Of a stretch of 64,000 bases of DNA, positions 4,533 through 15,752 are shown piece by piece. The first letter of the stretch is position 1. Every line of letters begins with the position of its first letter. The notes under the pieces are model-generated. The model was not told the DNA's origin and ran no database searches. It saw only the letters and a list, made by a program, of their open reading frames with translations. Origin of the DNA: Streptomyces sp. GSL17-111 (GTDB taxonomy: Bacteria > Actinomycetota > Actinomycetes > Streptomycetales > Streptomycetaceae); the NCBI RefSeq assembly GCF_037911585.1, contig NZ_JBAJNS010000001.1, forward strand, positions 1,549,001 to 1,613,000, in the 5' to 3' direction. Made by a program: the position numbers and the translations under genes.

Positions 4533-5180
4533 TTGAGCACCAGCACCCTCCCCGCCCCTTCGCGCCGCAGGGTCGGTGCCCTCGGCCTCGTCCTCGGCGG
4601 GCTGACCGTGGGCGTCGTCACGGCCGGGGTCGTCCTCCTCGCCGGTGACCACGACGGTGTCCCCGACGACGGGCCGCACCGGCTGCTGCCACCGGAGGCG
4701 GCCGGTACGTCCTACCGCACCGGTGACGCCGTCCTGCCCGAGGGCGCCGAGCGGACCGTCGAGGCCTTCGGCGTCGAGGACGCGACGACCGTCAACGCCA
4801 ACTACGCCCGTGGCGAGGAGCAGTTCGCCATCTTCGCCGGGGCCTACGGCCGCGTCGAGGACCCGGCACACGCCGTGGACGCCGCCTTCGCCCAGCTCGA
4901 CGCCGCCGTGGCGCAGGCACCCGACCCGACGACGGAGCTCCGCGGCGAGCCCGAGCGCGTCACCCCGCAGGGGGCCGAGGACGCCGTCGTGAAGTGCCGG
5001 CTGGCCGTGGGTACCGGTCTGCGCTCCGAGGAGCCGCAGGAGACGCAGTTCTGCATGTGGGCGGACCACAGCACGGCGGGCATGGTCGTCGTCTCGCGGG
5101 CGAGCGGGCGGATCAGCCGGGAGGAGGCCGCGCGCTTCACCGCCGACCTGCGCCACTCCGCCCGGCTGCCCGCGTCGTAG
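4533..5180 (+). CDS. Membrane-anchored exported protein, function unknown
   Basis: A 215-residue protein with a basic N-terminus (RRR at 11-13), one hydrophobic segment (about 14-37) and a hydrophilic exterior domain. The segment has no lipobox cysteine, so it is an uncleaved anchor or a cleaved signal peptide rather than a lipoprotein. Two cysteines in the second half (KCRLA and FCMWAD) could form a disulfide outside the cell. The start is TTG with GGAGGT about nine bases upstream (4518-4523). It precedes the SDR gene by 34 bases and may share a transcript with it. I do not recognise a named family. Confidence 0.8.
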
Positions 5181-5214: not shown

Positions 5215-6033
5215 GTGCCGGACGACGCCGCACCCGCTCCGCGACGACCCGACGCCCCCGACTCCGCCGGCTTCCCCGCCACGGGCCGACGGGTGCTGGT
5301 GACGGGCGCGGCGCGCGGCCTCGGACGGGCCGTGGCGCGGGCGTTCGCCGCCGCCGGGGACCGGGTGGCCGTCCACTACGGCACCCGGCGCGCCGAGGCG
5401 GAGGCCACGGCGGCGGGCCTGGACGGCACCGGTCACGTGGTGCTCGGGGCCGACCTGGGGGCGCACGGGCGGGCGGCGGACCTCGTGGACGCGGCCGCCG
5501 CCGCACTGGGCGGCGTCGACGTGCTGGTCAACAACGCCGCCGTCAACACGCCGCACCCACCGGTCGGGACGGGCGCGGCGGAGTGGGCGGACGCCTGGGA
5601 ACGCCACGTCGCCGTCAACCTGCTGGCGCCCGCGCACGCCTCCCACGCCGCCGCGCGGCACATGATCGCCCAGGGGACGGGCGGCCGGATCGTCAACGTC
5701 GGTTCACGCGGGGCGTTCCGCGGTGAGCCCGACCATCCCGCCTACGGCGCGACGAAGGCCGGGCTGCACGCGCTGGGCCAGTCGCTGGCGGTGGCGCTCG
5801 CCCCGCACGGGATCGCCGTCGCCTCGGTGGCGCCCGGCTTCATCGACACCGACCGCGTCGCCCACCGGCTCCGTGGCGCGGAGGGGGAACGCATCCGGGC
5901 GCAGAGCCCCTTCGGCCGGGTCGCCACCCCGGAGGAGGTCGCGGCCGCCGTGCTGTGGCTGGCCTCGCCCCAGGCCCAGTGGAGCTCCGGTACCGTCCTG
6001 GACCTCAACGGCGCCTCCCACCTCCGCACCTGA
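5215..6033 (+). CDS. SDR-family NAD(P)-dependent oxidoreductase
   Basis: Classical short-chain dehydrogenase/reductase of 272 residues. It has the cofactor motif TGAARGLG (30-37), the NNAA structural motif, the catalytic serine in NVGSRG and the YxxxK pair in YGATK. The end (SSGTVLDLNGA) matches the FabG-like group that usually ends in G-x-x-x-x-V-D-G. A GTG at 5215 is preferred over the upstream GTG at 5182 because GAGAGGA (5201-5207) sits seven bases before it. The first 20 residues are Pro/Ala-rich and not conserved in the family. Substrate unknown. Confidence 0.88.
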   Translation: MPDDAAPAPRRPDAPDSAGFPATGRRVLVTGAARGLGRAVARAFAAAGDRVAVHYGTRRAEAEATAAGLDGTGHVVLGADLGAHGRAADLVDAAAAALGGVDVLVNNAAVNTPHPPVGTGAAEWADAWERHVAVNLLAPAHASHAAARHMIAQGTGGRIVNVGSRGAFRGEPDHPAYGATKAGLHALGQSLAVALAPHGIAVASVAPGFIDTDRVAHRLRGAEGERIRAQSPFGRVATPEEVAAAVLWLASPQAQWSSGTVLDLNGASHLRT

Positions 6034-6155: not shown

Positions 6156-8948
6156 ATGTCTGCATCGGGGCCGTCGTTCACCGGGGTGCACGAGCTGCTG
6201 TCCATGATCAGGGGCCTCATCGAGCGGCGGCGGTTCCTGGCCGGCACCCCGGACACGGAGGTGCGGGGCGACCATCCGTTACCCCTGGTGTGCCTGCTCC
6301 GCGAGGAGGGCACGAACGACTTCCTCCCGGCCCTGCACCGGGGCCTAGGTGGCCATGACGCGCCCCAGGTCCCGCACGCCTACGTCGACGCGGCCACGGT
6401 GGACGATCACGTCCTGGACCGCTGGGCGAGCACGGACCGGCAGACGCCTCCCCTCCTCCCGCTGCTGGACGAGCTCAGCGCCGCGCTCGGCGCGGACCGG
6501 TTCGGCGGGCGTCCGCTGAGGTTCGGGCTCTACGGGCTCGCGGACTGGCTGACGGCCCAGCGGCTCTCCCCGGATCAGGGCGGCCACGAACAGGAGATCG
6601 TCGACCTGCTGCGGCGCCGGAGCGGCCGGGTGCGGGAGTCCGATTCGGCGGCGCTCACCACCGCGTTCGCCTCCGCACCGAACTCCGTCGGCATGGTGGG
6701 CTCGATGCTGCTCCTGCTGCTGACGGCGGGCCGACGGCTGGGGCTGCGGCGGCTCGGACGGCGCGTGCCCGGGCTGGGCCGCGAGGCACGCTGGTTCATG
6801 CGCCGCCAGCCGTACATGATCCCCCGGCACTCCACGAGCTTCGCCGGGTTCGCCGAGCGGCTCACCGAGGGCCGGCGCGCCTCGGAGAACCCGGAGCAGG
6901 TCAAGAAGCTGCTGGTGCACGCCTTCCTGGAGGACCTGCGCCGGGTCTACCGGCGGCGGCACCGGCACCTCCTGCCCAAGCGCTCCGGATGGCGGCGGAC
7001 CGCCTACACCACCGTGCTCCTGGACAACGTGACCGAGGGGAACGGCGGCTGGGAGCTGCTGCGGCTCATCAACGAAGTCCGCAACGAGACCGGCGAGCTC
7101 GATCCGCTGCTGGTCGTGGCGGCGGCCCGGCGGCGGCCGAGCTCCCCCGAGGCGGAGGAGTCGGCCGAGCCCCACCCGCCCCAGGAGGCGCACCGGGCGC
7201 TGGAGCACTGGCTGAACACCCTGCCCGGCAGGCGGCAGCGGCTGGTGGAGAACGCCAGGTACCTGTGGATCGGCCTGCCCCCGCAGGCCGATGAGGAGCC
7301 CGGTGCGCGGGACGCGTGGCGGGCCGTCGCGTCCTTCCGGCCCCGCGCCGCTCCCCTGCCGGCCCGTCGGGGCGTCGGTGAGGTGCTGCTGTCCGCCGCC
7401 CTGGTCCTGACGCTGCTTCCCGTGACCGCGAACGTGGTGAGGTCCTGGAGCGCCGACTGCGCCTACGTCCGGCCGGGTTTCGTCGACGGTGTCTCCGTGC
7501 GGGTCGCCGAGCTGGGCCGGAGCGACCGCCAGTGCATCGGCTACAGCGACAGCGCGGTACAGGTCTTCGGCGGCAACCCCCGGCTCCGCGCCGCGCAGGC
7601 CGCCATCTTCGAGCAGAACGAGGTGGCCGCCCGGCTGCACGAACAGCAGCCCGGCCGTCCCCACCTCGGCATCGTCCACTTCGTCGGCCTCACCCACCGG
7701 GCGGCCTCGCCCGACACCGACCACGCGGCCGCCGAGGAGCTGGAGGGGCTGCTCCTGCGGCAGCGGGCGCAGAACGTGAAGTCGGAGACGCAGCCGCTGC
7801 TGCGCGTCATCGTCGCCAACGGCGGGGACGGGATGCGCAGGGCCCCCGAGGTCGTGCGGGACATGCTTCGTCCACTGTTCGACGCCGACCCCTCGGTGCT
7901 GGGCGTGGTCGGGCTCGACCGGACCGTCGAGGAGACCGAGCGGGCGATCACGGAGCTCGGACTCGCCGGCATCCCGGCCGTCGGCACCACCCTCACCGGC
8001 TCCGGGCTGGCCGACCTGTCGCCGCTGTACTTCCAGATGGTCCCCGACAACACCCGGCAGGCCCGGCTGATCGCCCGGTACGCGGCGCACCTGGGGGCGG
8101 GGAAGGTCACGCTCCACCACCCGGAGGACGGGGACAGCTACGTCGACAGCCTCCTGGCCGCCACGCGGACCGAGTTGGGGGCGGCCGGTCTGGCCACGGA
8201 GTCGCGGGGCTGGCGGTCCGTCGGGCAGGTGGCGTCGCTGTGCGCGGACGACACCGACCGCAGGGACGAGATCGTCTACTACATAGGGCGCGAGAACACC
8301 TTCTTCGACTTCATCAGGTCGGTGACCAAGGGCTGCACCAGCCGTCGCGGGCTGCCGCGCATCATCGCCGCCGACGCCGTGTCGCGCTTCGTCGCCCAGA
8401 AGGAGAGCCGCAGCCACAGCTCCCTGGCGGGCCAGCCGATGGCCTACGTGGGCATGGGCGGTCTCGTCACCCTGGCCGGGGCCTCCTGCGTCGAGGAGGG
8501 GCGGCCCGCGTCCCTCCTGGGCCCGGGCACACCGCTGGACGCGTTCTGCGCCGGCTACGCGAACCTGCACCGCGAGCTGGCCCGCACGCTCCCGGAGGAC
8601 GAGGCCCCGCAGATGCCGTGGCCCGCCGAGCGCACCGGTACGACCTACGACGTGGCCGGGCTCTTCGTGGACGCGACGGCCACCCTCCACGAACGGCTCG
8701 ATCCGTCCGGGACGGGCGCCGCCCCGCACCGAGCCGCCGTGGCCCAGCAGTTCCGCGACAGCACGTTCCAGGGGGCGACGGGTGAGGTCGACTTCCGCGA
8801 GGACCGGGTGGGGAACGCCCGCAACCTCGCGGTCCTGGAGGTCGCCGACATCTACGACCTGGAGTCCGCACCCGGCTGCGTCTTCATGCTCGGCGACCTC
8901 TTCCACCCCGGCCAGCCGAGGGACACCGCCACGGGGTGCCCGCGCTGA
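6156..8948 (+). CDS. Membrane receptor-like protein: decayed NTPase-like half, TM helix, type-1 periplasmic-binding domain
   Basis: A 930-residue protein. Residues 1-400 lack a signal peptide and look cytosolic. They resemble a STAND/AAA-like NTPase that has lost its P-loop: where Walker A is expected (about 43-60) there is LVCLLREEGTNDF with no GK(S/T), while a Walker-B-like VLLDN is kept at 287-291. A transmembrane helix spans about 408-428. Residues about 500-920 form a type-1 periplasmic-binding fold like branched-chain amino acid receptors (LivJ group), with segments such as GVVGLDRTVEET and AGIPAVGTTLTGSG. The topology implies a ligand-sensing exterior and an intracellular domain. A short hydrophobic stretch at 177-190 is probably buried. 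No transporter genes are adjacent. Ligand and output are unknown. Confidence 0.8.
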   Translation: MSASGPSFTGVHELLSMIRGLIERRRFLAGTPDTEVRGDHPLPLVCLLREEGTNDFLPALHRGLGGHDAPQVPHAYVDAATVDDHVLDRWASTDRQTPPLLPLLDELSAALGADRFGGRPLRFGLYGLADWLTAQRLSPDQGGHEQEIVDLLRRRSGRVRESDSAALTTAFASAPNSVGMVGSMLLLLLTAGRRLGLRRLGRRVPGLGREARWFMRRQPYMIPRHSTSFAGFAERLTEGRRASENPEQVKKLLVHAFLEDLRRVYRRRHRHLLPKRSGWRRTAYTTVLLDNVTEGNGGWELLRLINEVRNETGELDPLLVVAAARRRPSSPEAEESAEPHPPQEAHRALEHWLNTLPGRRQRLVENARYLWIGLPPQADEEPGARDAWRAVASFRPRAAPLPARRGVGEVLLSAALVLTLLPVTANVVRSWSADCAYVRPGFVDGVSVRVAELGRSDRQCIGYSDSAVQVFGGNPRLRAAQAAIFEQNEVAARLHEQQPGRPHLGIVHFVGLTHRAASPDTDHAAAEELEGLLLRQRAQNVKSETQPLLRVIVANGGDGMRRAPEVVRDMLRPLFDADPSVLGVVGLDRTVEETERAITELGLAGIPAVGTTLTGSGLADLSPLYFQMVPDNTRQARLIARYAAHLGAGKVTLHHPEDGDSYVDSLLAATRTELGAAGLATESRGWRSVGQVASLCADDTDRRDEIVYYIGRENTFFDFIRSVTKGCTSRRGLPRIIAADAVSRFVAQKESRSHSSLAGQPMAYVGMGGLVTLAGASCVEEGRPASLLGPGTPLDAFCAGYANLHRELARTLPEDEAPQMPWPAERTGTTYDVAGLFVDATATLHERLDPSGTGAAPHRAAVAQQFRDSTFQGATGEVDFREDRVGNARNLAVLEVADIYDLESAPGCVFMLGDLFHPGQPRDTATGCPR

Positions 8949-9025
8949 TCCCCGCCGGCGTGCGAGCGTGGAGGCATGCGGAGAGCGGAGAGGCGGCGAC
9001 GGCGGTGACGGGGAGGAGCAGGCCG

Positions 9026-9643
9026 GTGTTCGCGCGGCTGTACGCGCGGCTGGCGGGGCCCGCGCTGGAGCGGGCGGGCGTGGACGAGCACCGGCGGAGC
9101 CTGCTCGCCGGGCTCACCGGCGAGGTGGTGGAGATCGGCGCGGGCAACGGGCTGAACTTCCCGCACTACCCGGCGGCGGTACGTCGGGTGGTGGCCGTCG
9201 AGCCGGAGCGGCACCTGCGCGAGATGGCCGGGCGGGCGGCACGGACGGCGCCGGTACCGGTCGAGGTCGTGGACGGCGCGGCCGAGCGGCTGCCGTTCCC
9301 CGACGGGTCGTTCGACGCGGCGGTGGCCTGCCTGGTGCTGTGCTCGGTGGCCGACCAGGAGCGGGCGCTCGGGGAACTGCGGCGGGTGCTGCGGCCGGGC
9401 GGGGAGCTGCGGTTCTTCGAGCACGTCCGGTCGGAGAGCCCGGGGATGCGCCGGGTGCAGGGGTTGCTGGACGCCACGCTGTGGCCCCGGCTGGCGGGCG
9501 GCTGCCACACCGGGCGCGACACCGGCGCCGCGATCGGGGCGGCCGGTTTCGAGGTGACCGGACTGCGTCGCCTGCGCTTCCCCGCCACCGCACGCGCGAC
9601 CCCGTCGAGCAGCCACATCCTCGGCACGGCCGTCCGCCCCTGA
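9026..9643 (+). CDS. Class I SAM-dependent methyltransferase
   Basis: A 205-residue methyltransferase with motif I VVEIGAGNG (AdoMet-binding glycine loop), an acidic residue ending strand 2 (AVEPE), the LPFPDGSFDAAV segment and a post-motif RVLRPGGEL; this is the UbiE/COQ5-like fold. The GTG at 9026 is chosen because GGGAGGAG (9011-9018) sits seven bases before it and relatives typically begin MFxRxYAR. The open frame runs further upstream, even overlapping the previous gene, but with no ribosome site. Substrate not predictable. Confidence 0.85.
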   Translation: MFARLYARLAGPALERAGVDEHRRSLLAGLTGEVVEIGAGNGLNFPHYPAAVRRVVAVEPERHLREMAGRAARTAPVPVEVVDGAAERLPFPDGSFDAAVACLVLCSVADQERALGELRRVLRPGGELRFFEHVRSESPGMRRVQGLLDATLWPRLAGGCHTGRDTGAAIGAAGFEVTGLRRLRFPATARATPSSSHILGTAVRP

Positions 9644-13172: not shown

Positions 13173-13769
13173 TCAGTGCCGGGCGGTCTCCCGGTCCGCG
13201 TCCGAGGCGGCGGGTGGACGGGTATCGGCCGTGCCGTTCGGCGGCCGCTTGGGCCAGAGGGTGTAGCTGAGCGCGATCACCACGGCGATGCCCACGACGT
13301 ACCGCATCCGGACCTGCCACGCGCGCAGCGGCGCCACGTCACCCGCGTCACCGACGTACCAGATCGCCGCCTGGAGCAGCCCGGCGGCGATGGCGGCGGC
13401 GCCGATCGCGCGGGCGCTCAGCCGCCACTCGTGCGCGGCACGCGCGCTCCCGTAGCGGGGCGGCCTCACCGGCGGCGGGCCGTCCGCGAAGCGGTGGGCG
13501 AACCGTGCGTCGGCCCAGCGGACGAGGTGGGGGCCGTGGGTGACGGTGACACCGAGGTAGACGGCGGCCAGGCCGTGCCGCCAACCCGGCTCACCGCCGT
13601 CCCTCAGGTCGGCGGCGGTGGCCACGAGCAGCACCACCTCCAGCAGGGGCACGCACAGCAGGACGGCCAGCCCGGTGCGGGGCATGCGGGCGAGGTAGCG
13701 GAGGGCGAGACCGAGCGCGAGCAGGACCCAGAACCCGATCTCGGCGGCGATGATGAGCGCGAGCAGCAC
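13173..13769 (-). CDS. Polytopic membrane protein, function unknown
   Basis: A 198-residue hydrophobic protein with likely membrane helices at about 3-24, 32-52, 64-80, 120-139 and 157-173 and a polar C-terminal tail. The start is GTG at 13769 with AAGGAG five bases upstream (in + coordinates 13775-13780); longer reading frames upstream run into the chiS coding sequence. It is divergent from chiS with 148 bases between. No motif identifies its function, and any link to chitin sensing is only positional. Confidence 0.75.
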   Translation of the reverse strand: MLLALIIAAEIGFWVLLALGLALRYLARMPRTGLAVLLCVPLLEVVLLVATAADLRDGGEPGWRHGLAAVYLGVTVTHGPHLVRWADARFAHRFADGPPPVRPPRYGSARAAHEWRLSARAIGAAAIAAGLLQAAIWYVGDAGDVAPLRAWQVRMRYVVGIAVVIALSYTLWPKRPPNGTADTRPPAASDADRETARH

Positions 13770-13917
13770 GGCGGCTCCTTTCCTTGCCTCCAGCCTCGCG
13801 GCCGGGGCCGCTCCGGACGTCGTCGCCGGTGACGATCCGCCGCTGCATCTTTCGATGTACCCGCCACCTCCCCGGGGGCGGACGTGGCCACCGCGTCCGA
13901 CGTGCTGGGATGGGACC

Positions 13918-15105
13918 ATGCCGCTCGCCCTCCCGTCGCGTCCGCACCGCTCGGACGCCCTGATCGCCGTCGCCGGGCTGCTCGGGGGGCTGCTGCTGTG
14001 GCGGCTGGAGGTGTTCACCACCCACCAGGGCTTCGGACGCAGGTACGGCGCCTGGGCGGTGCTGCCGCTGGTGCTCATGTGCGGGGCCGTGCTGTGGCGC
14101 CGCGACCCGAGGCCCTGGGTGCTGGGCGTCGCCTACCTCGCACTCGTCGGCGACCAGCTGACCGGCGGGCTGCTGGCGACGGTGCTGCTCTTCACCGACG
14201 TCATGTACGCCGCCGTCCTCTACGGCAGCGCCCGCCGGGCCCGGCTGCTGCCGCTGTGGACACTCGTGGTGGGCGTGGCGTTCACCCTCGGCATGCTGGC
14301 TCTGCTGCGGGAGCCGGAGGCGCTGGTGCTCGGCATGCTGTTCGCCCTGGTCACCTCCGCGCCCGCCTACACCGGCCTGCTCGTGCGCAACCACCGCGAC
14401 ACGGCCGCCGCCGAACGGCTGCGGGCCGAGCAGACGGCCCTGCTGGCGGAGATGGACCGCACCCAGGCCGTCGCGTCCGAACGGGCCCGCATGGCCCGGG
14501 AACTGCACGACCTGGTCGCCAACCACCTCTCCGCCATCGCCCTGCACGCGACGGCGGCCCAGAGCAGCGACGACACGTCCGCCACCGCGCGGGCGCTCGG
14601 CGTCATCCGGGAGAGCAGCGTGCAGGGGCTGGCGGAGATGCGGCGGCTGATCGGCATCCTGCGGGAGGAGTCCGACGACGGGGAGGAGCTCGCCACCCGG
14701 CCCACGCTGGACGGCCTGCCCGCCCTCGTCGCCCGCGCCCGCTCGGGCGGCGCGGCGGGCGGGCTGCGCTTCGCCCTCCACGACGGCCCGGCGGAGTCCG
14801 GGGGCCTGCCCGCGCCGGTGGAGCTGGCCGCCTACCGGGTCGTGCAGGAGGCCCTGACCAACGCGCTGAAGCACGCCGCGCCCGGTGAGGTGAGCGTGCG
14901 CCTGGAGCGGGCGGCGGACCTGACGGTCACCGTGTGCTCGCCGCTCGGCCGCGCGGGCCCCCGGGTCCCCGGCTCGGGGGCCGGACTCGTCGGCATGCGG
15001 GAACGGGTCGAACTGCTGGGCGGCGCGTTCGCCGCCGGGCCGGACGGGGACGTGTGGCGGGTGCGGGCCCGGCTGCCCCTGAGTGAAGGAGCTGAGCGCA
15101 CGTGA
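13918..15105 (+). CDS. chiS: Sensor histidine kinase, ChiS homologue
   Basis: A 395-residue NarL/DesK-type histidine kinase. Five or six membrane helices occupy residues about 13-157, then a helix leads to the HisKA_3 dimerisation motif MARELHDLVANHLSA with phospho-acceptor H197. The ATPase N-box is VVQEALTNALKHA and a G-box is GAGLVGMRERVELLGG. The gene overlaps chiR by four bases (GTGA), so the two are co-translated. In S. coelicolor the ChiS/ChiR pair lies directly upstream of chiC and controls it in response to chitin; the same order here supports the name. The very short extracellular loops suggest it senses within the membrane or through a partner. Confidence 0.8.
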   Translation: MPLALPSRPHRSDALIAVAGLLGGLLLWRLEVFTTHQGFGRRYGAWAVLPLVLMCGAVLWRRDPRPWVLGVAYLALVGDQLTGGLLATVLLFTDVMYAAVLYGSARRARLLPLWTLVVGVAFTLGMLALLREPEALVLGMLFALVTSAPAYTGLLVRNHRDTAAAERLRAEQTALLAEMDRTQAVASERARMARELHDLVANHLSAIALHATAAQSSDDTSATARALGVIRESSVQGLAEMRRLIGILREESDDGEELATRPTLDGLPALVARARSGGAAGGLRFALHDGPAESGGLPAPVELAAYRVVQEALTNALKHAAPGEVSVRLERAADLTVTVCSPLGRAGPRVPGSGAGLVGMRERVELLGGAFAAGPDGDVWRVRARLPLSEGAERT

Positions 15106-15752
15106 CGATCCGGGTACTCGTCGCCGAGGACCAGGCGTCCGTACGGTCCGGGCTGGTGCTCATCCTGCGCGGCGCGGCGGGGGTCGACGTCGTCGGGGAG
15201 GCCGAGGACGGGGAGGAGGCCGTGCGGCTGGCCCGGGAGCTGCGGCCCGACATCGTCCTGATGGACGTGCAGATGCCGCGCCTGGACGGCGTCTCGGCCA
15301 CCCGGGAGATCGTCGCGGAGCGGCTGGCCGATGTCCTCGTGCTGACGACGTTCGACCTGGACGCCTACGTGTTCGGGGCGCTGCGGGCCGGCGCGGCGGG
15401 CTTTCTGCTCAAGAACACCGACGCGGCGGGACTCGTCGACGCCGTCCGGACGGTGGCACGCGGCGAGGGGACGATCGCGCCCGCGGTGACCCGGCGGCTC
15501 ATCGCCGAGTTCGCCGCCCCGGCCGTCGCACCCGCACAGGCACCCCCCGAGCTGGAGACTCTGACGGCACGGGAGCGGGAGGTGCTGGCGCTCCTGGGCG
15601 AGGGCCACTCCAACGCGGACGTCGCGGCCCGGCTCTCGATGGCCGAGGCCACCGTGAAGACGCACGTCAGCCGCGTCCTGCGCAAGCTGGGGCTGCGCAG
15701 CCGCACGCAGGCCGCCGTGCTGGCCAGGGAGTGGGGCGTCTCGCCCGCCTGA
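15102..15752 (+). CDS. chiR: NarL-family response regulator, ChiR homologue
   Basis: A 216-residue response regulator with a receiver domain (1-120; acidic pocket E9-D10, phospho-acceptor D55 in IVLMDVQMP, conserved Lys in FLLKN) and a C-terminal LuxR-type helix-turn-helix (about 150-212; LTAREREVLALL and EATVKTHVSRVLRKLG). GTG start overlapping the chiS stop. It lies 293 bases upstream of the chitinase gene and is the likely activator of it, as described for ChiR of S. coelicolor. Confidence 0.85.
   Translation: MTIRVLVAEDQASVRSGLVLILRGAAGVDVVGEAEDGEEAVRLARELRPDIVLMDVQMPRLDGVSATREIVAERLADVLVLTTFDLDAYVFGALRAGAAGFLLKNTDAAGLVDAVRTVARGEGTIAPAVTRRLIAEFAAPAVAPAQAPPELETLTAREREVLALLGEGHSNADVAARLSMAEATVKTHVSRVLRKLGLRSRTQAAVLAREWGVSPA

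Follow-up and report, generated by a model that had tools for sequence, protein, structure and literature searches.

A P-loop-less STAND relative joined to a Venus-flytrap ectodomain in Streptomyces: a predicted membrane receptor from a wider actinomycete family

The 64,000-nucleotide stretch of Streptomyces sp. GSL17-111 DNA that we have analyzed (the window) holds, at 6156-8948, a gene whose product we regard with moderate confidence as a receptor that spans the membrane once and would pass the binding of a ligand outside the cell to a nucleotide-independent pseudo-STAND scaffold inside, for signaling of a conflict type. Sequence comparison assigns this protein to a larger family of probable actinomycete receptors, as a branch with a dead ATPase, and establishes the order of its domains (a STAND/AAA relative, a transmembrane (TM) helix and a type-1 periplasmic binding protein (PBP)), the loss of Walker A in all fused members examined, the homology of the N-terminal domain with intact NTPases and the existence of a two-gene form in which the NTPase and the TM-PBP part are encoded separately. 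A membrane receptor that raises an alarm is the likely role, more so than a part of a transporter. A first-pass annotation of the window had already proposed a sensor built from a P-loop-less NTPase relative, a TM helix and a LivJ-like ectodomain; what is added here is the two-gene form, a paralogue elsewhere in this genome, and the TIR, kinase and EAD1 partners of the ectodomain.

An AlphaFold2 model of the whole protein, based on 83 sequences and with a mean predicted local distance difference test score (pLDDT) of 88.6, divides it into an N-domain (about residues 1-395), a long helix (407-432) and a PBP (435-930). The TM helix expected from the first-pass annotation between the two halves is this model helix, and a hydrophobic segment is found at about 400-440 in 83/83 aligned rows. 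The hydrophobic helix 178-199 was considered as a second membrane segment, in the manner of a KAP-like insertion; this reading was not adopted, the threshold being passed in 9/83 rows only. The ectodomain, modeled as a two-lobed PBP, matches solved mGluR, CaSR and LivJ-type structures with E about 1e-13, in keeping with its earlier description as LivJ-like, and is all that Pfam detects in the window protein, below cut-off in both cases (ANF_receptor, 2.2e-05; Peripla_BP_6, 2.1e-04). Eight of the nine cysteines lie in it, six of them invariant and two nearly so across the 83 sequences, as expected of a disulfide-bonded domain outside the cell. Coordinates are collected in Table 1.

The N-domain is modeled as an alpha/beta fold with five core strands (44-49, 74-78, 285-292, 318-324 and 369-374) and a helical insert between strands two and three; modeled alone it reaches a pLDDT of 85.7 and a predicted template modeling score of 0.87. 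Foldseek returned no match to this N-domain-only model at E<=0.001. The top VIA-align rows are proteins that we take to be of AAA+, ORC and STAND type; KAP NTPases are not among these rows, which says nothing on KAP membership. When 66 dead N-domains were compared with eight intact NTPases in hhalign the two profiles aligned over 300 columns (probability 98.8%, E 8e-17), with the dead loop lying opposite the GPRGSGKT of the intact enzymes, and a search of the Streptomyces sp. GSL17-111 genome with the intact NTPase of locus L116 as query recovered the window gene (E 1.9e-8, 35% identity). The core of the N-domain is, at the level of sequence, homologous to intact STAND/AAA NTPases. The string GxxxxGK[ST] is absent from residues 1-140 of all 121 proteins examined (some of them being N-terminally short), from the N-part of all 92 family rows (eight of 100 rows were left out for too little N-part) and from all 31 fused proteins of the survey described below, 16 of which were aligned at the loop and 15 string-searched only; the three sets overlap. 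One looser string, AVSRRGKS in L187, occurs among the fused proteins, and its first residue is not Gly. The L011 and L005 copies, whose N-part looks broken, allow no P-loop reading and were set aside. The P-loop-less STAND/AAA relative claimed by the first-pass annotation is supported by the hhalign result, the VIA-align rows and the 0/92 count, and the models of residues 1-400 are compatible with an NTPase fold. More than the loop is gone. The winged-helix and C-terminal helical parts are absent, with the hhalign alignment ending near residue 381, before the LTxGHP region of the NTPases, and the models have hardly more than one helix between strand 369-374 and the TM segment.

Relatives were sought first in 61 related genomes, Streptomyces sp. 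GSL17-111 included, and were found in 28 of them (38 matches), many in open frames of just about 500-600 residues that correspond to the TM-PBP part. Twenty of the 38 matches (L101-L120) were enlarged. A separate gene encodes the PBP in 17/20, and in 17/17 of these the next gene upstream, in the same orientation, encodes a complete STAND-type NTPase; in the other three (L109, L110 and L120) the N-part is in the same frame as the PBP. Pfam assigns eight of the upstream NTPases to AAA_22/AAA_16, below cut-off, and NCBIfam has no model for the four NTPases tested and gives a single TM-PBP match far below cut-off. The first-pass annotation had suggested a look for homologues with an intact P-loop; such a loop exists, in a separate upstream NTPase gene followed by the TM-PBP gene. 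A pair of this kind lies in the same genome, outside the window (L123:6534-10584; G000:C1, about 4.4875-4.4916 Mb). It was found in the L116 search; its NTPase carries GPHGSGKT and YTGGHP, the TM-PBP gene is directly behind, and its ectodomain is 20% identical to that of the window protein, so that one organism holds both the intact-loop two-gene form and the dead fused form.

A class-wide survey with a TM-PBP query gave at least 66 matches in at least 50 of 296 genomes and at least 18 of 105 genera, lower bounds since at most four candidates were scored per genome. Two of the 66 matches are in Streptomyces sp. GSL17-111 (L123 and the window gene) and the other 64 in 63 stretches, which together with L101-L120 and L123 make a survey set of 84 loci with 85 PBPs. 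Among all the loci retrieved in this work L120 and L087, and likewise a few further pairs, represent one gene each. Of the 85 PBPs, 36 belong to two-gene loci, 31 are fused and 18 are of other forms. L199 and L205 were scored as fused with the N-part of each split over two frames, and L204, scored as two-gene, is doubtful and unalignable, leaving 35 clear two-gene loci. Walker A is intact in 23 of these 35, and clear remnants are kept in 12: GGPGMGK with Gly, Arg or Ala after it in eight, GPAGSGAS in two and GHHGMGR in two. Some surveyed TM-PBP genes, for example L168, L169, L172 and L182, have no NTPase found upstream. One locus (L162:4360-7849) has a single STAND NTPase gene followed by two tandem TM-PBP genes.

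A quick, unrooted tree, to be read with a long-branch warning, was computed for 107 ectodomains: 53 fused (window included), 23 two-gene intact, 12 two-gene degenerate and 19 unlabeled. Labeled fused and two-gene rows are separated by one change, on a branch with a Shimodaira-Hasegawa-like approximate likelihood ratio test (SH-aLRT) value of 100 and a length of 0.57; with unlabeled rows as a state of their own 'fused' requires eight changes and the degenerate two-gene forms three. ATP use would then be ancestral, because a lost P-loop is unlikely to return, with decay several times among the two-gene systems and loss in the fused line. In the course of events that we envisage the two-gene form (NTPase gene, then TM-PBP gene) would be the older state and fusion would have been accompanied both by truncation, with the winged-helix and C-terminal helical parts lost, and by the loss of ATP binding. 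In the present protein a ligand would close the ectodomain, probably dimeric as in other Venus-flytrap receptors, and closure would be relayed through the TM helix to rearrange the pseudo-STAND domains, which might in turn bind or let go of a cytoplasmic protein whose gene lies elsewhere. We infer in this manner its topology, ligand binding, dimerization, TM signaling and the scaffold action of the pseudo-STAND domain.

The company kept by the ectodomain suggests what such signaling might be for. Among the 18 other survey rows, supplemented by a second search of one family (matches in 17/35 genomes), the same TM-ectodomain unit is preceded by TIR, kinase, DUF4062 and EAD1 domains as assigned by Pfam, all from one family of genomes (Table 1). 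Since this unit bears TIR, Ser/Thr kinase, NB-ARC, DUF4062 and EAD1 domains, we infer an immune, conflict or cell-death output. The ectodomains of L212, L214 and L210 are 37%, 37% and 34% identical to that of the window protein; values for 17 two-gene loci in the same alignment are 18-22% and for L164, L167, L215 and L216 they are 19-23%. In the tree L210, L212, L214, the window protein and 15 other fused rows form a group of 19 (SH-aLRT 79) that is nested in a group of 55 rows, 49 of them fused (SH-aLRT 96). Kinase forms are found on both sides of the main branch, so the parts inside the cell have likely been exchanged more than once, to judge from these sequences. L212 resembles an NLR whose PBP part apparently lies outside the cell. 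None of the PADLOC models covers the window protein, two two-gene pairs, L210 or L212; the kinase part of L164 matches its phage-defense kinase models, as many Ser/Thr kinases might. A literature search of openly licensed PMC texts by literal terms gave neither STAND plus TM-PBP pairs nor TIR/kinase-TM-PBP proteins.

These relatives allow a broader reading, which we hold tentatively and consider possible rather than probable, namely that actinomycetes have a superfamily of Toll-like immune receptors at the membrane, of which the window protein represents a pseudo-NLR branch. One Venus-flytrap family with one TM helix would be combined with interchangeable conflict modules inside (TIR, TIR-NB-ARC, TIR-kinase, kinase, DUF4062, EAD1 and, in trans, a STAND NTPase), a single fusion would have made an ATP-free receptor driven by its ligand out of an NLR switch driven by ATP, and the TIR and kinase receptors would derive from the window branch by a swap of the inside part.

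The presence of both forms in Streptomyces sp. GSL17-111, and also in some other sampled genomes such as G280 (L183, L195) and G111 (L171, L201), raises the question of whether the fused protein might have no output of its own and serve as a pseudo-enzyme partner or brake, in a heteromer or as a decoy, of an active STAND plus TM-PBP pair. We think this unlikely. The co-occurrence was seen in individual sampled genomes, with at most four candidates scored in each, and the two ectodomain groups are split by the long branch noted above, the window and L123 ectodomains being as divergent as stated.

It is also quite improbable that the N-domain is a true STAND switch that binds nucleotide through an altered P-loop. 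The Walker B Asp (Asp290) is retained in the window protein and in 52/92 family rows, and the changed P-loops of the 12 two-gene NTPases might indicate that an atypical loop is tolerated. However, the Asp position is occupied by Gly, Arg, Glu or another residue in the remaining 40/92 rows, loop positions 50-55 have variability ranks of 131-312 out of 338, that is mostly in the more variable half, strict Walker A is retained in no row, and the winged-helix part that stands behind the core of intact NTPases is missing. A pseudo-STAND scaffold that acts independently of nucleotide remains our preferred description of the fused protein.

A role in transport, in which the protein would be a membrane-tethered substrate-binding component of an ABC importer encoded elsewhere and the N-domain just an anchor or regulator, is suggested by a PBP fold close to LivJ-type and class C receptor domains and by several databases that label homologues 'ABC transporter substrate-binding protein', yet we give it very little credence, since the TM helix follows a conserved domain of 400 amino acids rather than being N-terminal, TIR and kinase domains carry the same ectodomain, and ABC genes are not nearby. 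The motif pair of ABC ATPases occurs in 0/775 neighbors within 5 kb of fused genes and in no long frame of the window; when the range is widened to about 8 kb (1200 called neighbors), the pair is present in two, at distances of 6.0 and 6.4 kb. No ABC family is among the 25 commonest Pfam families of 89 homologue neighbors. The lack of adjacent ABC transporter genes that the first-pass annotation had noted extends, within 5 kb, to the family, whose members do not lie consistently beside ABC permease genes, and the idea of a transporter part was rejected.

Several described systems resemble the receptor proposed here in part. Kaur et al. 2020 (PMC7159879) include EAD1, TIR, STAND and kinase domains among the parts of conflict systems, and their 'System 4', a two-gene EACC1-caspase membrane conflict system, is likewise actinobacterial and membrane-associated, with TM helices and an extracellular PBP mentioned behind caspases as the variable part in some instances and with STAND NTPases among its variable parts. 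The invariable elements of that system are EACC1 and a caspase (or cyclase), whereas the TM-PBP described here is paired with a STAND NTPase gene or with the dead copy fused to it; the frames around the window gene gave no match to EACC1, a caspase or a cyclase, and the upstream gene encodes a short-chain dehydrogenase. The iSTAND of the MoxR-vWA ternary systems is, as portrayed in passages of the same paper (PMC7159879), also a catalytically inactive STAND of a proposed conflict system with TIR and EAD partners; it is accompanied by MoxR and vWA genes and those passages describe no PBP ectodomain, while MoxR and vWA are found neither in ten frames around the window gene nor among the commonest homologue-neighbor families. 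CisA, without which a Streptomyces contractile injection system tied to regulated cell death does not fire, is bitopic with a cytoplasmic N-terminus and has an outside domain (residues 310-468) that is reported to resemble solute-binding domains; by the description in the relevant part of PMC12237407 it differs in being located in the cis cluster, in the smaller size of its outside domain and in having no STAND described.

With STAND NTPases (NLR-like proteins) the N-domain shares its core fold. Full STAND homologues mostly retain Walker A, Walker B and an LTxGHP-like region, whereas the fused family is without Walker A and the post-core part and has its sensor predicted to be outside the cell. 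Class C G protein-coupled receptors and other Venus-flytrap receptors have the same ectodomain fold, likely used by analogy, and ligand-gated transmembrane signaling serves as our working model for the window protein; here there is one TM helix as against seven, and the cytoplasmic part is a different one. Bacterial STAND/NLR-like defense proteins are mostly thought to sense intracellularly. The portions of PMC10907252 that treat such sensors fit this picture: those C-terminal to STAND domains bind phage proteins, and one NACHT-CLec protein is predicted to be periplasmic, so that sensing outside is not wholly unparalleled.

Should our preferred reading hold, proteins with a ligand-binding domain outside and NLR, TIR or kinase domains inside would correspond, in bacteria, to the immune receptors of cell surfaces, and through them multicellular bacteria could react to outside cues such as metabolites or lysis products of their neighbors. 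With an intact two-gene form and a dead fused form side by side in one genome, it can be asked directly if signaling of the STAND type needs ATP, a question shared with pseudokinases and inactive STANDs.

Table 1. Features of the window gene (window coordinates) and domains joined to related TM-ectodomain units (locus coordinates where given)
Feature	Location	Strand	Description or basis
Whole gene	6156..8948	+	930 aa: pseudo-STAND domain, TM helix and type-1 PBP ectodomain
Pseudo-STAND/AAA domain, N-terminal, predicted cytoplasmic, about residues 1-395	6156..7340	+	models, hhalign, VIA-align
Lost P-loop position, residues 44-57 (strand 44-49, then the loop, then a helix starting at 56), without GxxxxGK[ST]	6285..6326	+	
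Walker B-like strand, residues 285-292 (VLLDN 287-291)	7008..7031	+	model, family alignment
Predicted TM helix, the only one, residues 407-432, with Arg-Arg at 404-405 shortly before it	7374..7451	+	model, hydrophobicity
Type-1 PBP/Venus-flytrap ectodomain, predicted extracellular, residues 435-930	7458..8945	+	model, structure match
TIR_2 + Pkinase, then TM-ectodomain	L164:2341-5847; L167:1447-4491	L167: -	single protein; Pfam
Pkinase, then TM-ectodomain	L214		Pfam
TIR_2 + GMGGVGKT domain (AAA_16/NB-ARC weak, below cut-off), then TM-ectodomain	L212:871-4533	-	Pfam
TIR_2 alone, then TM-ectodomain	L210, L220		Pfam
DUF4062, then TM-ectodomain	L215, L216, L232, L239, L240		Pfam
EAD1, then TM-ectodomain	L225, L226, L227, L236; L224 just under cut-off		Pfam

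The reading frame of the window gene is backed by a third-codon GC content of 0.91. An alternative in-frame GTG start is present at 5955, 67 codons upstream of the ATG, and homologue alignments begin about at the ATG and not at the GTG. A chance open reading frame (ORF) or annotation artefact is ruled out by the third-codon GC, by 284 homologues at E <= 0.001 and by the structure. All named proteins among the best 120 homologues listed are actinomycete, with 'hypothetical protein' or 'ABC transporter substrate-binding protein' as the usual labels; a second, alignment-seeded search gave at least four new names (P0126-P0129) in the best 120 of 281. The nearest named homologue is from Streptomyces chumphonensis, with a receptor 94% identical, and there too the dehydrogenase (98% identical), which in the window is the 5' neighbor at a distance of 122 bases from the receptor gene, adjoins it. 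A conserved operon partner of the fused gene was sought and rejected, shared neighbors amounting to synteny within Lentzea and within Nocardia; others that are shared (TetR regulators, amidases and dehydrogenases) belong to common families and lie at scattered distances.

The flanks of the two-gene loci L101-L119 include ResB (5/86 of the scanned neighbors) and cytochrome c assembly proteins (6/86), which may be plain synteny. A match to NNH1 (NACHT N-terminal helical) occurs once among two-gene neighbors, and its bearer, judged by length and place, is likely the frame L108:878-4162 upstream of a two-gene locus. Within the window a methyltransferase frame as called (8936-9643, GTG start) shares its first 13 bases with the receptor gene, and its real start may be further downstream than the called GTG. 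A histidine kinase of HisKA_3 type is encoded at 13750-15105, with an ORF directly behind (15102-15752) that could be its regulator. The 215-amino-acid ORF at 4533-5180, which has no Pfam match at E<=1, begins with a Gly-rich N-terminal hydrophobic segment and is possibly a membrane-anchored protein.

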